From Fodinicola acaciae (lineage in GTDB: Bacteria > Actinomycetota > Actinomycetes > Mycobacteriales > HKI-0501), in assembly GCF_010993745.1 (NCBI RefSeq), contig NZ_WOTN01000003.1, positions 1,364,001 to 1,428,000 of the forward strand: a stretch of DNA of 64,000 nt, in the 5' to 3' direction. Below are positions 29,270 through 63,350 of this stretch, in pieces. A program made the position numbers and the translations under genes. Position 1 is the first letter of the stretch. Each line of letters opens with the position of its first letter. The notes under the pieces are model-generated. The model had not been told where the DNA came from. It saw only the letters and a program-made list of their open reading frames with translations, and searched no databases.

Positions 29270-29417
29270 CCGGATTTCCCCCTCCAGCATTTGCGACACG
29301 TCACATGCTAACGACGGCACGGCCTCGTCCGTGCCCTGCCCTCATCCGTACCCGACCGTACGCGCTCCCATGACGGCGTCGCGAGCCCGGTTAGCGCTGC
29401 TCACCAACCCACCATGC

Positions 29418-29837
29418 GCGACGAAACTGTCGTACGGGGTGGTTATGTTTGCCCCCACCCAGATCGGGTGGGGGGTGGGTTGAGAGGCCGCGAGCGCGCG
29501 CAAAAATTTATCGCCAAGTGCCGTTTTAGCGATACATGTCCTCTTTGTGCGCCTGTGTTTGGGTCGCATGGACGCCATGCGTGCGTCTGACGCACGCATG
29601 GGGTCCATGCGACCACAACCCGCGTACGCAAAGCGGACATTTGCCGCCACAGGCACTGCGTATGCAACAAAGGTGACCGCGACACGCCAGCAAGGCGGTT
29701 ACGTTCGTGACATAGACGCCGCCGACGCCGCGACCAAGATCGACTTTTCGAACTTATCTAAGTAGCCACGCGAACCCACCCCCCGCCCGATCTGGGTGGG
29801 GGTCCAGATTGGCACCTGGGTACGACAGTTTCGCGCT
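29418..29837. repeat. Hairpin element, copy 1, with long imperfect terminal inverted repeats
   Basis: The ends are about 72-base imperfect inverted repeats (29418-29490 and 29765-29837). Each starts with CGAAACTGTCGTAC and continues with a G/C-skewed CCCCCACCCAGATCGGGTGG tract. The interior carries a copy of the 53-bp palindrome at 29562-29614 and an A/T-richer stretch. No credible gene is inside. The same termini occur at 32024-32200. Confidence 0.7.
29562..29614. repeat. 53-bp palindromic repeat, copy 1
   Basis: Two 25-base arms beginning GGTCGCATGGAC pair with a single mismatch around a 3-base CTG loop. Each arm also holds a short internal palindrome (CATGG/CCATG-like). Homologous copies are at 37476-37528 and 62868-62920. 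It is nested inside the hairpin element 29418-29837. Confidence 0.8.
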
Positions 29838-35213: not shown

Positions 35214-35370
35214 CGACTCATCACTCCCTTACCGCCATGCTGCCGACCTTCTACCGACCGTCGACATTCCGGCATCACGGTATCCGCTGTCGCGCCGGCG
35301 CGCCGCACCGGGACACCCATCCGCGCCAACGTCACACCTCCGCCCGCGCGCGCGTACGAGCAGCCGGCGC

Positions 35371-35571
35371 GAAACTGTCGTACCGGCGTGGAAACGTTGA
35401 AACCGGGGGTCCCCCAAGCGCCGGAGCCGTGGTCGCCGAAACTGTCGTACCCATGTGGAAACGTTGAAGTCGGGGGTCCCCCAAGCGCCGGAGCGGTCCT
35501 CGCCAAAAATGTCGTACCCGCGTGGAAACGTAGAAAACGGGGGGTCCCCCATCACGCGCGCGTACGGGGGA
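35371..35571. repeat. Three tandem 67-bp repeats with a GGGGGTCCCCC core
   Basis: Units start at 35371, 35438 and 35505, exactly 67 bases apart. Each begins GAAACTGTCGTACC (degenerate in the third), continues with GTGGAAACGTTGAA and has the palindrome GGGGGTCCCCC. Units one and two also share CAAGCGCCGGAGC. After the third unit a second palindrome, GGGGGACCCCC (35566-35576), completes a large stem. The repeats lie downstream of the ABC-F gene and upstream of the DUF4383 gene on the minus strand. The first 14 bases match the termini of the hairpin elements at 29418 and 32024. Confidence 0.85.
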
Positions 35572-37414: not shown

Positions 37415-37475
37415 CCCTCCATCCTGCCTCACGCTTACGCGTGCGCCATTAGTTACCACTTGCTTAGAACTAGGT

Positions 37476-37528
37476 GGTCGCATGGCCACCATGCTTGCGT
37501 TCAATGCACGCATGGTGGCCATGCGGCC
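37476..37528. repeat. 53-bp palindromic repeat, copy 2
   Basis: Arms begin GGTCGCATGGCCACCATG and pair with three mismatches around a TCA loop. It lies in the 129-base gap between the divergent ABC-F and MarR genes and therefore in both promoter regions. Confidence 0.8.
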
Positions 37529-37543
37529 GCTGAGGTTAGTAAG

Positions 37544-38002
37544 ATGTTGCTTATGGATGCGGAGACGGTGCGGCTGGTAAGGCGAGGGGCGGCCAGGCTG
37601 GCCAAGCGGCTGCGCCGCGAACGGCCGGAAGGCTCGGTGAGCGCGTCGAAGATCAGCGTCCTCGGCCAGCTGGCCAACGCCGGCGCACTGACCGTCGGCG
37701 AGCTGGCCAGGCGCGAGCGGCTGCAGCCGCAGGCCCTGACCCGCACGCTCGCCGCGCTCGAGGAGGACGAGCTGATCAGCCGGGTGACCGCCGCCGACGA
37801 CCGGCGCAGAACTGTCGTACGCCTCACCGAAGCTGGATGCGAGGTGCTGACGAAGGACACCGCACAGCGAGAGGCGTGGTTGGCGATGGCGATGGCTCAG
37901 GAGCTCAACGACACCGAGATCGGCCTGCTGCGGCTCGCCGGCCCGCTGCTGGAGCGGCTGGCCGAGTGCGAGACGGCGGCCTCGGTCCGGCGGGCGTCAT
38001 GA
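37544..38002 (+). CDS. MarR-family transcriptional regulator
   Basis: 152 residues from the ATG at 37544, 8 bases after GAGG; an ATG three codons on is possible. Winged helix-turn-helix: SASKISVLGQLANAGALTVGELARRERLQPQALTRTLAALEEDELISR with the wing AADDRRRTVVRLT. The stop overlaps the start of the ABC exporter (ATGA), so this regulator probably controls that exporter, the standard arrangement for multidrug export operons. Confidence 0.92.
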   Translation: MLLMDAETVRLVRRGAARLAKRLRRERPEGSVSASKISVLGQLANAGALTVGELARRERLQPQALTRTLAALEEDELISRVTAADDRRRTVVRLTEAGCEVLTKDTAQREAWLAMAMAQELNDTEIGLLRLAGPLLERLAECETAASVRRAS

Positions 38003-39765
38003 CGGTCAGCCTCAAGAAGGAGGACACCAAGGTCCCGGTGCGCCGGATCGTCGCGCTCTTCCGGCCGTACGTGCCGCAGATGGTCCTGCTGGTGCTGGTG
38101 GTGATCGTCCAGGCGCTGGCCGGCATCTCGTCGCCGTTCCTGTTGCGCGAGATCCTGGACCGTGCGCTGCCGGCCCGCGACCTCGCACTGGTCAGCCTGT
38201 TCGCCGGCGGCATGATCGCGGCCGCGGTGCTCAGCGGCGCGCTCGGCGTGGCGACGACCCGGCTGTCCAACACGGTCGGCCAGCAGGTCATGCACGACGT
38301 GCGGGTGTCGGTGTACGAGCACCTGCAGCGGCTCTCGTTCGCGTTCTTCACGCGTACGCGCACCGGCGAGATCCAGTCACGGATCGCCAACGACATCGGC
38401 GGCATCAACAACGTCATCACCAACACCGCCACCTCGGCGGTGCAGAGCGCGACGACGGCGATCGCGGTGGCGGTCGCGCTGTTCGTACTCGACTGGCGGC
38501 TGGCTCTGCTCGCGCTGCTGGTCGTGCCGGTGTTCCTGCTGTTCACCTTCCGGCTCGGCCGGCAGCGGCGGCAGCTCACCCACGGCCGCGCGCAGCGATT
38601 CGCCGCGATGACCTCGCTGATCTCCGAGTCGATCTCGGTTTCCGGCGTCCTGCTGGCCAAGACGATGGGCCAGCGGCAGACGCTCGCGGACCGGTTCGCC
38701 GCCGAGTCGCGGCAGATCTCCGACCTGGAGGTGCAGGCCACCATGGCCGGCCGCTGGCGGATGGCCACCCGCGGCATGAGCCTGACCATCATCCCGGCGA
38801 TCGTCTACTGGCTGGCCGGCATCGAGTTCGCCCACGGAGTCTCACCGGTCACGCTCGGCACGGTCGTCGCGTTCACCAGCATGACCAACCGGTTCGTCCA
38901 GCCAGCCACCTCGCTGCAGTCGGTGGGTCTCAACGTGTCCACGTCCATGGCGTTGTTTGGCCGGGTCTTCGAGGTGCTCGACCTGCCGGTCGAGATCGCC
39001 GACCGGCCGGGCGCCACCCCGCTGCGGATCAAACGCGCGGACGTGGAGCTGCGCGAGGTCTCGTTTCGGTACGAGCAGGACGGTCCGTGGACACTGCGGG
39101 GCATCTGCGCGCGGATCCCGGCCGGCACCACCACGGCGATCGTCGGCGCCACCGGATCCGGCAAGACGACGCTGGCCTATCTGGTCGCGCGGCTGTACGA
39201 GCCGGAGCACGGTGCCGTGCTCCTCGACGGCACCGACATCCGCGACATCACCCTCGACTCGCTCGCCGACTCGGTCGGTCTGGTGGCGCAGGAGACGATG
39301 CTCCTGCACGCCTCCATCAAGGAAAACCTGGCGTTCGCCAAGCCCGACGCCACCGACGACGAGATCATGCGGGCCACCAAGGCGGCGCACATCCACGACC
39401 TGATCGCGTCGCTGCCAGACGGCTACGACACGATCGTCGGCGAGCGCGGTTATCGCTTCTCCGGCGGCGAACGCCAGCGCATCGCCATCGCGCGCGTACT
39501 GTTGCGCAATCCGCCGGTGCTCATCCTGGACGAGGCGACCAGCGCGCTCGACAACAAGACCGAGCGGCTGGTGCAGCAGGCGCTGGACGAGCTTTCCCGT
39601 GGCCGCACGACGATCGCCATCGCACACCGACTGTCCACTGTGGAGAGTGCCGACCAGATCCTGGTGCTCGACCACGGAGAAATCGCCGAGCGCGGCACGC
39701 ACGCCGAACTGATGGCTCTCGGCGGCCGTTACGCGCACCTGGCGGCCAGTCAGCTCACCGCCTGA
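37999..39765 (+). CDS. ABC exporter (fused membrane and ATPase domains)
   Basis: 588 residues from the ATG at 37999. Six transmembrane helices in the first 320 residues (type IV exporter fold), then an ATPase domain with Walker A GATGSGKTTL, Q-loop VGLVAQETML, signature FSGGERQR and Walker B VLILDEATSALD, and the switch His in IAIAHRLST. It would work as a homodimer. No N-terminal C39 peptidase is present, so it cannot itself remove a peptide leader. It converges on the RiPP-like genes with a shared terminator; whether it exports their product or simply drugs is unknown. Confidence 0.92.
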   Translation: MTVSLKKEDTKVPVRRIVALFRPYVPQMVLLVLVVIVQALAGISSPFLLREILDRALPARDLALVSLFAGGMIAAAVLSGALGVATTRLSNTVGQQVMHDVRVSVYEHLQRLSFAFFTRTRTGEIQSRIANDIGGINNVITNTATSAVQSATTAIAVAVALFVLDWRLALLALLVVPVFLLFTFRLGRQRRQLTHGRAQRFAAMTSLISESISVSGVLLAKTMGQRQTLADRFAAESRQISDLEVQATMAGRWRMATRGMSLTIIPAIVYWLAGIEFAHGVSPVTLGTVVAFTSMTNRFVQPATSLQSVGLNVSTSMALFGRVFEVLDLPVEIADRPGATPLRIKRADVELREVSFRYEQDGPWTLRGICARIPAGTTTAIVGATGSGKTTLAYLVARLYEPEHGAVLLDGTDIRDITLDSLADSVGLVAQETMLLHASIKENLAFAKPDATDDEIMRATKAAHIHDLIASLPDGYDTIVGERGYRFSGGERQRIAIARVLLRNPPVLILDEATSALDNKTERLVQQALDELSRGRTTIAIAHRLSTVESADQILVLDHGEIAERGTHAELMALGGRYAHLAASQLTA

Positions 39766-39772
39766 CCGGGAC

Positions 39773-39809
39773 CGCGGCTGTGACGGTCGGCCTGACTGTC
39801 ACAGCCGCG
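39773..39809. terminator. Bidirectional terminator between ABC exporter and RiPP precursor
   Basis: CGCGGCTGTGAC (39773-39784) pairs perfectly with GTCACAGCCGCG (39798-39809), followed by AAAAACGACAA. It sits 7 bases after the exporter stop and 11 bases beyond the end of the precursor gene on the other strand. Confidence 0.85.
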
Positions 39810-39820
39810 AAAAACGACAA

Positions 39821-39970
39821 CTACGGACACTTGGCGGTCGTCTGGCAGGCCGGATAGCAGCTCACGTCCCTGCTGTGGCAGGTGCCCTGCTGCGTCGGCT
39901 CCGGATAGTCGGCGATGATCGTCCGGTGGTCGTCGACGCGGATGTCCAGGTCGAACTCGTCAGCGGTCAT
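39821..39970 (-). CDS. Putative RiPP precursor peptide with FxLD leader and Cys-rich core
   Basis: 49 residues from the ATG at 39970, which has a very strong AGGAGGAGAAAG ribosome site. The acidic leader contains FDLDIRV (residues 6-12), matching the FxLD/FNLD box that class I lanthipeptide enzymes recognise. The C-terminal half, from about residue 27, is QQGTCHSRDVSCYPACQTT followed by AKCP: four Cys (31, 38, 42, 48), several Ser/Thr, no hydrophobic helix. It lies 34 bases downstream of a radical SAM gene in the same direction. I infer a modified peptide in which the radical enzyme acts on the core; the modification, cleavage site and bioactivity are unknown. The gene is too short for routine gene finders but its start and context are convincing. 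Confidence 0.75.
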   Translation of the reverse strand: MTADEFDLDIRVDDHRTIIADYPEPTQQGTCHSRDVSCYPACQTTAKCP

Positions 39971-40004
39971 CTTTCTCCTCCTGTTGGTTGAGCCGGTTTT
40001 CCCG

Positions 40005-41012
40005 TCAAACCGGCGAGAACTCCGGCCGGCCGTCGATCCGCGCGCGGACCTGCGCCGACCCGAAGTGATAGTCGATCCGGCGGACCGCGGCGGCCCAGTC
40101 ACGGATCGTGCGTACGCTGGAAAACGCCTCCAGTACGAATGGATCGCGTGCCCGCGCGAGCGCTTTCTGCCAGAGCACGTCGCCTGGCTCGGCCAGGATG
40201 TTGCCGACGATCCCCTCGTAGTAAGGGAAAGACCGCACACCGCCGTCCGGCTCGATCTCCATGAACGCCGGCACCGGCGTCTGGGGGCTGAGATAGGGAT
40301 GCGCGGACCGGTGGTCGGCGGTGGCCACGTGTACGGTCGGCGGCGCGATCGACCGGAGCCGGTCGCGCAGCTCGTCGCCGACCAGGATCTCGGCCTGCTC
40401 GTCGGTCAGCAGCTCGTGGGCGGCGAAACTGTCCCGGCTCGCCAGCCCGATTGGCAGCGCCGCACCAAAACTGATGAAGCCCAGCCGGGGAAACCGCGGC
40501 GCCACCTCAGCGCAAAACCGCTCCAGCTGGTCGAAGTTGCTTCTGGTGACGACACAGTCGAATCCGAAATGGACCGGCCGGTGCCGCGCGGCCCCGTCCA
40601 GCATCGCCAGCGCGGCCATCACCTTGTCGTACGACCCCTTGCGTGCACGAATGCGGTCGTGCACCTCGGCCGTCGCGCCGTCGAGGCTGACATGGACACG
40701 CGTAAAGGAACCGACCAGCTCGTCGACCATCGCCTGGTGAAACGTCCAGCCACTGGTCCAGACGGCCGCGCTGATCCCGGCGGCGGTGATTTTCCGTGCG
40801 AGGTCGTAAATCCCTTTGACCAGCAGCGGCTCGCCACCGGCGATGGCGATTTCCGGCGGTCGCATGGAAATCAGCGCGTCGGTGACCCGCAGCATGTCCG
40901 CGGGACCGAGCTGGCGCGCCGGCCGCCGGCCGGACTCGGTGTAGCAGTGCACGCACCGCAGCGGACAGGCAAACGTGACGGCCCACGTTATCCCCGGCAG
41001 ATCGACGCCCAT
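40005..41012 (-). CDS. Radical SAM enzyme, likely RiPP maturase with Cys-less SPASM-like tail
   Basis: 335 residues. The radical SAM motif CxxxCxxC is ACPLRCVHCY (Cys 16, 20, 23), GGEPLL follows near residue 60 and SLDG near 110, all as in peptide-modifying members. The C-terminal part has the outline of a SPASM domain (MEIEPDGGVRSFPYYEGIVGNILAE..VLW), but the cysteines that would bind auxiliary clusters are missing; only two other Cys exist (about 152 and 166). No separate leader-binding (RRE/PqqD-like) domain is obvious. It is the first gene of a two-gene unit with the FxLD peptide. Alternatives: a PqqE/MoaA-like enzyme for an unrelated substrate. Confidence 0.85.
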   Translation of the reverse strand: MGVDLPGITWAVTFACPLRCVHCYTESGRRPARQLGPADMLRVTDALISMRPPEIAIAGGEPLLVKGIYDLARKITAAGISAAVWTSGWTFHQAMVDELVGSFTRVHVSLDGATAEVHDRIRARKGSYDKVMAALAMLDGAARHRPVHFGFDCVVTRSNFDQLERFCAEVAPRFPRLGFISFGAALPIGLASRDSFAAHELLTDEQAEILVGDELRDRLRSIAPPTVHVATADHRSAHPYLSPQTPVPAFMEIEPDGGVRSFPYYEGIVGNILAEPGDVLWQKALARARDPFVLEAFSSVRTIRDWAAAVRRIDYHFGSAQVRARIDGRPEFSPV

Positions 41013-41074
41013 CGCACCTACTTTCCCCGTGTACGCCGGAAAACCTCCGGCCCTGCTCCAGACTGCGTCTTAAA

Positions 41075-41120
41075 CGGTCCCGATCACCGGGACCGAGCGG
41101 CGGGAAAAGGCGGGAAAAGG
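41075..41120. promoter_or_regulatory. Palindrome and direct repeat upstream of the radical SAM gene
   Basis: CGGTCCCG (41075-41082) and CGGGACCG (41088-41095) form a palindrome 63 bases upstream of the radical SAM start, next to an exact tandem pair CGGGAAAAGG (41101-41120). It could be the operator of the RiPP-like operon or the terminator of lipB, which ends at 41129; the short stem and lack of a T-tract favour the former slightly. Confidence 0.4.
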
Positions 41121-41128
41121 TCCCGGGG

Positions 41129-62857: not shown

Positions 62858-62867
62858 GAAACTCGAT

Positions 62868-62920
62868 GGTCGCATGGCCACCATGCGTGCGTTGGACGCA
62901 CGCATGGTGGCCATGCGACC
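62868..62920. repeat. 53-bp palindromic repeat, copy 3 (perfect)
   Basis: Two perfect 25-base arms, beginning GGTCGCATGGCCACCATG, flank a TGG loop. It fills the gap between the stop of the small membrane protein gene (62928) and the thpR start (62857), both on the minus strand, so it would be transcribed as a hairpin in the thpR leader. Confidence 0.9.
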
Positions 62921-62927
62921 GAAGACG

Positions 62928-63350
62928 TCAGCAGGGGTGGTGGCGGGGGGTGGGGAGGGCGAGCACCAGGCCGGCGCGCTCCAGCTCGGCCTCCACCCGG
63001 ATGCGCTCGACCGAGTGCGCGAAGCCGTGCACGGCGCACAGCTCCTCGTCGATGCCGAGCGTCGCGCAGGCGTCCGAGAGCGTCCGGTCGTACGCCAGCT
63101 GGATGCCGTGATAACGCGCGGCGGACAGGTGCCGTGGATCCTCAAGCATCCCCCGCAACCGGCGCAGAGTCGCAGCCGTGCACTCCAGCGGTGGCGAGAC
63201 CGGCTGCGGGCCGTGCCGCCACAGCCGCCAGTGCTCACCGAACCAGGCGCCGACCTGGCCGATGTCGAGGAACATGCGTACCAACAACGCGGGCACCGTA
63301 CACGTCACGAGAAGCAGGACAAGGTCGGCCGCTACCAGGAGGCCGTTCAT
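62928..63350 (-). CDS. Small membrane-anchored protein of unknown function
   Basis: 140 residues from the ATG at 63350. One N-terminal transmembrane helix (LLVAADLVLLLVTCTVPALLVRMFL) is followed by a cytoplasmic helical part: GAWFGEHWRLWRHGPQPVSPPLECTAATLRRLRGMLEDPRHLSAARYHGIQLAYDRTL..AVHGFAHSVERIRVEAELERAG. The sequence looks conserved and helical but I recognise no family. It lies 8 bases upstream of the perfect 53-bp palindrome. Confidence 0.65.
   Translation of the reverse strand: MNGLLVAADLVLLLVTCTVPALLVRMFLDIGQVGAWFGEHWRLWRHGPQPVSPPLECTAATLRRLRGMLEDPRHLSAARYHGIQLAYDRTLSDACATLGIDEELCAVHGFAHSVERIRVEAELERAGLVLALPTPRHHPC

Follow-up and report, generated by a model that had tools for sequence, protein, structure and literature searches.

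What does a 49-residue FDLD-leader peptide make together with the radical SAM enzyme encoded beside it, when no LanB, LanC or LanKC gene lies within the window, i.e. the whole 64-kb stretch of DNA analyzed here? The sequence-only reading had answered with a new, lanthipeptide-free RiPP class. Based on the observed gene adjacency, family association, motif association and leader homology, we instead favor, with a probability of roughly 0.6, an orphan or satellite precursor of class I lanthipeptide type with a dedicated tailoring radical SAM enzyme, LanB and LanC being supplied in trans and the radical SAM enzyme acting at an aromatic-Pro-(x)-Cys site.

The outline of the locus given by the sequence-only reading was recovered (Table 1). 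Both genes lie on the minus strand, with the peptide gene (MTADEFDLDIRVDDHRTIIADYPEPTQQGTCHSRDVSCYPACQTTAKCP, including four Cys) 34 nt downstream of the radical SAM gene and its ATG preceded by AACAGGAGGAGAAAG, a strong ribosome site. The proposed shared terminator corresponds to a 16-nt inverted repeat (arms 39773–39788 and 39794–39809, 94%) located between the peptide stop and a convergent ABC transporter gene, while the palindrome proposed upstream reads CGGTCCCG-N5-CGGGACCG, with perfect 8-nt arms about 60 nt ahead of the radical SAM start, and its exact 19-mer occurs once in the window. LanB and LanC genes, expected in the cluster for a class I locus, are missing here. Two candidates for additional locus members were rejected: the ABC transporter (37837–39765) is convergent, shares just 36% identity with a cluster transporter, and is located directly 3' of a MarR-like frame, and is therefore probably an unrelated efflux gene, while lipB and an epimerase gene upstream are ordinary genes for which no link to the locus was seen. 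Elsewhere in the window, we observed a roughly 72-nt palindromic element in three copies (29554–29625, 37468–37539, and 62860–62931; GGTCGCATGGCCACCATGCTTGCG...CATGGTGGCCATGCG), as well as a tandem 67-nt unit in three copies at 35370–35570 (starting with CGAAACTGTCGTACC), with CGAAACTGTCGTAC also scattered close by, at 29412 and 32018.

Table 1. Features of the peptide and radical SAM locus (positions in the window)
Feature	Position	Strand	Basis
Terminator-type inverted repeat common to the convergent genes	39773..39809	.	16-nt arms, 94%
Precursor peptide, 49 aa, FDLD-type leader and four-Cys, Ser/Thr-containing core	39824..39970	-	leader homologous to the L041 class I LanA, own genome
Tyr-Pro-Ala-Cys, residues 39-42, candidate radical SAM site	39845..39856	-	predicted from family motif
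Leader motif FDLDIRV, residues 6-12, LanB/RRE recognition type	39935..39955	-	
Ribosome-binding site AGGAGGA 5' of peptide ATG	39971..39985	-	sequence
Radical SAM enzyme, 335 aa, lanthipeptide-associated family	40005..41012	-	PF04055, model pLDDT 87.2, tree
Hairpin and helix of SPASM-like type, no cluster Cys, residues 250-281	40170..40265	-	likeness by inspection
CPLRCVHC, radical SAM [4Fe-4S] motif, residues 16-23	40944..40967	-	three Cys invariant, 43/43 sequences
Palindrome CGGTCCCGATCACCGGGACCG 5' of radical SAM gene, candidate operator	41075..41095	.	function predicted

FxLD is a lanthipeptide recognition sequence (PMC12710340, PMC7268733), and the FDLDIRV leader of the window peptide is of this type. 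The only NCBIfam models matched by the peptide were FDLD and FxLD, both below their curated cut-offs (13.0 bits for a cut-off of 20, and 10.5 bits for a cut-off of 30, respectively). As in class I precursors, its core (TQQGTCHSRDVSCYPACQTTAKCP) combines six Ser/Thr with four Cys, which makes (methyl)lanthionines possible. We consider this peptide a real lanthipeptide-type precursor because it has a relative in its own genome. Outside the window, this genome (8.86 Mb, 4 contigs) yielded 8 full-length LanB and 14 LanC-like matches, hence the earlier statement that lanthipeptide machinery is absent holds for the window but not genome-wide. A scan of 13 LanB/LanC regions of the genome for FxLD-type peptides included a class I cluster on contig C3 (L041; LanB 552126–553961, LanC 554110–555219) whose precursor has nearly the same leader, namely MHSTDEFDLDIRLDEPPTLRPWSG... 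compared to MTADEFDLDIRVDDHRTIIADYP... in the window, or DEFDLDIRLDE compared to DEFDLDIRVDD. The two peptides aligned with a score of 56 for a shuffled mean of 23 and 0/2000 shuffles as high, and the leader part alone likewise exceeded all shuffles (0/5000). Clear homology between the cores was not evident, as the shuffle test indicated a marginal likeness: in global alignments, about 5–7% of shuffles scored equally under a strict gap cost and about 2% under a lax one, and in local alignments about 30% did so. The aligned cores appear to place Cys-Tyr-Pro-Ala-Cys of the window peptide opposite Cys-Gly-Val-Cys of the L041 precursor, which is suggestive. Under our favored reading, a LanB and LanC encoded elsewhere in the genome would dehydrate Ser/Thr and close the thioethers in trans, the most likely supplier being the L041 cluster (C3:552–556 kb) with its near-identical precursor leader.

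The genome is overall unusually rich in lanthipeptide loci (L036–L048, across contigs C1, C2, C3, and C4), with several distinct FxLD precursors. In one of these loci (L043; C1:2653000–2671000), which represents another candidate split class I locus, a LanC-like gene lacks a nearby LanB match and is accompanied by a possible precursor (MTAPVQDKATTEFDLVIGDLEVEIPELDDTVAALTDGHTNPSCARCTCINVYCF).

Radical SAM reactions begin with a 5'-deoxyadenosyl radical. The window enzyme matches the Radical_SAM model PF04055 at 72.9 bits (cut-off 29.5), and its only Cys outside of the radical SAM motif are residues 153 and 167, so that the earlier claim of an enzyme without auxiliary-cluster Cys stands. No Pfam match to SPASM was obtained, and neither the window enzyme nor any conserved column of the family alignment provides a Cys beyond residue 167, i.e. 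the SPASM/twitch auxiliary [4Fe-4S] Cys of sactipeptide, ranthipeptide, and triceptide enzymes are lacking. The C-terminal family sequence (EPDGxVRAMPxYEGTVGNLL..LW) is SPASM-like and Cys-free, with EPDG, R260, E266, VG, and W281 invariant in the family. The alignment-based model of the enzyme starts directly in the barrel, and its best structural match is SkfB (6efn, E 6e-13), followed by DesII, viperin, MoaA, and BlsE. When folded alone, the C-terminal 96 residues matched no PDB structure at E<=0.001, and therefore yielded no RRE; Pfam and the whole model likewise revealed no PqqD-like RRE, consistent with the earlier remark that an obvious leader-binding domain is missing; a divergent RRE retains a small probability. 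Given this SPASM-like but Cys-free C-terminus, the family looks like a SPASM-type maturase that may have lost its auxiliary clusters.

Homologues of the radical SAM enzyme were gathered from GTDB contigs and whole genomes, for a total of 43 loci outside the window, 50–57% identical within Actinomycetota, along with a small number of about 40% identity. A majority of these loci (37/43) were lanthipeptide-linked, including 34 of class III/IV, 2 of class V, and 1 split locus. A LanKC/LanL gene was found within about 10 kb of the radical SAM gene in 33 loci, to which L151 adds one more, and representative synthetases displayed RamC_N and LANC_like domains along with, for three of the four scanned, a Pkinase domain. 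The class V members are L084, with an APH-type kinase and an LxmA-like leader below its cut-off, and L089, with HopA1 and a luciferase-like enzyme, the precursor of the latter being devoid of aromatic-Pro. In L101 (G822:C6:203600–222500), the precursor (MELDVTALDMLPASQEVGLYPCAVTCSENTRCGDHGTVL) and radical SAM gene lie together while the LanC-domain synthetase is about 16 kb off, which makes this locus a second case of precursor and radical SAM gene apart from the synthetase. Three loci (L114, L115, and L116) include two LanKC-like proteins beside the radical SAM gene and a single WPC precursor, one of these proteins having no recognizable kinase domain (L115:10054–12651).

Six loci had no lan genes nearby. 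Four of these (L005, L006, L112, and L118) are about 40% identical to the window enzyme and fall outside the lanthipeptide-linked clade, and presumably differ in function; L005 and L006 are from Microvirga, where the homologue is found near hisI-like and folE-like genes. Of the other two, L004 falls within the clade and L152 is 50% identical and was left out of the tree, and no recognizable precursor peptide was detected at either. Maximum-likelihood phylogeny nested the window enzyme among the lanthipeptide-linked sequences, in a clade of 39 rows with 100/100 support, where it forms a long branch (0.79) and has no close relative. This enzyme was absent from the two other genomes of the window's family, including one of the same genus (74% complete), and a kinase-domain search of two genomes yielded nothing further. 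The pairing of an FxLD leader with a radical SAM enzyme noted earlier is thus real at this locus, where the two genes adjoin, but searches of the family, order, class, phylum, two other families, and plasmids revealed no second FDLD and radical SAM pair.

Taken together, the homologue neighborhoods and the LanB and LanC matches in the genome led us to set aside a lanthipeptide-free class as the main reading: most homologous loci are lanthipeptide-linked, the window enzyme belongs to their clade, and the leader recurs almost unchanged in a class I cluster of this genome. The sequence-only reading had also named two patterns that would speak against its pairing, namely radical SAM homologues consistently without a small peptide, or homologous peptides always beside LanB/LanC and without the radical SAM enzyme. 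Neither was observed in that form, and the small peptides beside homologous radical SAM genes are class III, IV, or V lanthipeptide precursors. From this gene association, the radical SAM family would tailor lanthipeptides of several classes.

Where such tailoring may occur is suggested by the precursors themselves, as those adjacent to the radical SAM gene share a core start of [W/Y/F/H]-Pro-Cys across unrelated leaders. After ALQxL-type leaders, for which five tested precursors scored above the NF038157 cut-off, this core start takes the forms LWPC, LYPC, LFPC, and GRYPC, and after LxLQxL class III leaders the forms AQWPC and AHPC (Trp-Pro-Cys or His-Pro-Cys). We re-scanned precursors using a rule based on leader and ribosome site only, hence blind to the motif, and compared them to 29 loci without the radical SAM gene from related genomes, including one (L046) from the window's own genome. 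The motif [WYFH]PC was present in 25 of the 27 radical SAM loci with a precursor and in 0/20 synthetase loci without the enzyme (Fisher p 2e-11, a value inflated by the kinship of the loci). At the motif position, relatives without the radical SAM gene and with a near-identical leader displayed LQVC, LKYC, LRDC, or LRPC. On the synthetase tree, 4 independent contrasts were available on well supported branches, of which on average 3.4 agreed and 0 disagreed, so that the direction is consistent and the number small (4 to 7 phylogenetically independent contrasts are too few for p < 0.05). A locus of the window's own order found after this analysis (L151) reads ALFPC.

The window peptide does not include an exact [WYFH]-Pro-Cys, but the related Tyr-Pro-Ala-Cys, along with a second Tyr-Pro closer to the leader (residues 22–23, DYPEP, i.e. 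Tyr-Pro-Glu). Since the aromatic-Pro dipeptide alone was found in 4/20 control loci, its presence in the window peptide is weak evidence. From the co-occurrence of motif and enzyme, the radical SAM enzyme would most likely modify the aromatic-Pro-(x)-Cys of the core, here Tyr-Pro-Ala-Cys. The aromatic-Pro-Cys signature also strengthens the hint of Cys-related radical crosslinks given in the sequence-only reading.

Among known systems, the window peptide resembles FDLD/FxLD lanthipeptides of class I (NF038155, TIGR04363; LanB PF04738, LanC PF05147), with the same FDLDIRV leader, a short peptide, a core with Ser/Thr and Cys, and a near-identical leader in a LanA-LanC-LanB cluster of its own genome; unlike these, it is accompanied by a radical SAM gene instead of LanB and LanC, and remains under the curated family cut-offs. 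Class III/IV clusters (LanKC/LanL; ALQxL NF038157) share the radical SAM family, a small precursor nearby, and aromatic-Pro(-Cys) in the core, whereas the window has an FDLD leader, no LanKC, and YPAC rather than YPC. Two class V clusters (lexapeptide/cacaoidin type: HopA1, APH-like kinase, LxmA leader) also encode the same radical SAM family, although with different precursor and dehydratase types. By fold (6efn) and sequence (TIGR03962, N-terminal half), the enzyme is nearest to SkfB and other SPASM maturases (sactipeptide, ranthipeptide, triceptide, mycofactocin), including the SPASM-like hairpin sequence, yet differs from them by the absence of auxiliary-cluster Cys or SPASM match and by scores far under all equivalog cut-offs. 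Triceptides (three-residue cyclophanes) carry a C–C bond within an aromatic-X-X motif, and an aromatic-Pro-X is present here. Finally, lanthipeptide clusters have been reported to include PF04055 genes, with a possible role in secondary tailoring (PMC7268733), but the main text of that study names no family, motif, or reaction, and the aromatic-Pro-Cys link comes from the present analysis.

The absence of lan genes from the window, and from around the close homologues L004 and L152, together with the four Cys retained in the peptide, would also fit a LanB-independent RiPP, in which the radical SAM enzyme alone matures the FDLD peptide and a dehydratase never acts. We consider this unlikely: L004 and L152 are themselves without any recognizable peptide, the radical SAM enzyme has no detected leader-binding domain, the core includes six Ser/Thr besides its Cys, and the lanthipeptide link of 37/43 homologues adds to a genome with eight LanBs, one of which has a partner with a near-identical leader. 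Quite improbable, in our view, is a decaying class I cluster that lost its LanB, LanC, and transporter, and whose remaining precursor and radical SAM gene yield no product. No same-orientation transporter, protease, or synthetase adjoins the locus, the enzyme branch is long, and the two other genomes of the family lack the enzyme, all of which could reflect decay; however, the radical SAM frame is intact, with W10, CxxxCxxC, GGE, EPDG, and other family-invariant residues kept, and a well-formed ribosome site and terminator are present.

The reaction itself could also differ: instead of crosslinking Cys, the radical SAM enzyme could target the aromatic residue, as a peptide epimerase or a cyclophane (C–C) synthase. 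Such an activity would be compatible with W, Y, F, and H all being found ahead of Pro, with C167 being kept in 38/43 sequences, and with the aromatic-Pro-X spacing, which matches that of triceptide enzymes, known to link an aromatic ring with the Cbeta of the second residue after it (PMC11002830). Yet characterized three-residue cyclophane enzymes have SPASM domains (PMC11002830), whose cluster Cys are absent here, and the nearly invariant Cys after Pro would be superfluous for an aromatic-only reaction. Moreover, C167 gives way to Ser in L107 and to Val in four distant relatives, and C153, present in 27/43 sequences, is often replaced by Tyr; therefore, no obligatory donor Cys is evident, which would speak weakly against a PoyD-like epimerase. 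On balance, an epimerase or cyclophane synthase seems somewhat unlikely. For the favored satellite precursor, we speculate that the product may be a bond between Cys and the aromatic residue (−2 Da), a tentative preference to which epimerization or a C–C cyclophane would be alternatives. Equally tentatively, a single radical SAM family without auxiliary-cluster Cys might crosslink aromatic-Pro-(x)-Cys in a new way, both in lanthipeptides of classes III, IV, and V and in the class I-type peptide described here with its LanB and LanC in trans.

Overall, instead of a new lanthipeptide-free class, the locus points to an uncharacterized reaction that tailors peptides, and to a predicted, uncharacterized family of lanthipeptide-tailoring radical SAM enzymes with a predicted site. 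The literature searched contained no characterized radical SAM enzyme of this family from a lanthipeptide cluster; subscription papers lay outside its scope, and an earlier description elsewhere is therefore possible. This reading is more ordinary than the new class proposed earlier, yet leads to a sharper testable prediction: a family-specific site, [WYFH]-Pro-Cys at the core start, found in loci with the radical SAM gene and absent from those without it, across class III and class IV-type leaders. From this site, a substrate can be proposed directly for an enzyme that has no auxiliary clusters, when the characterized crosslinking enzymes of PMC11002830 possess SPASM domains. With the window locus, the motif link would reach further, to a leader of FDLD type and a precursor encoded apart from its dehydratase.
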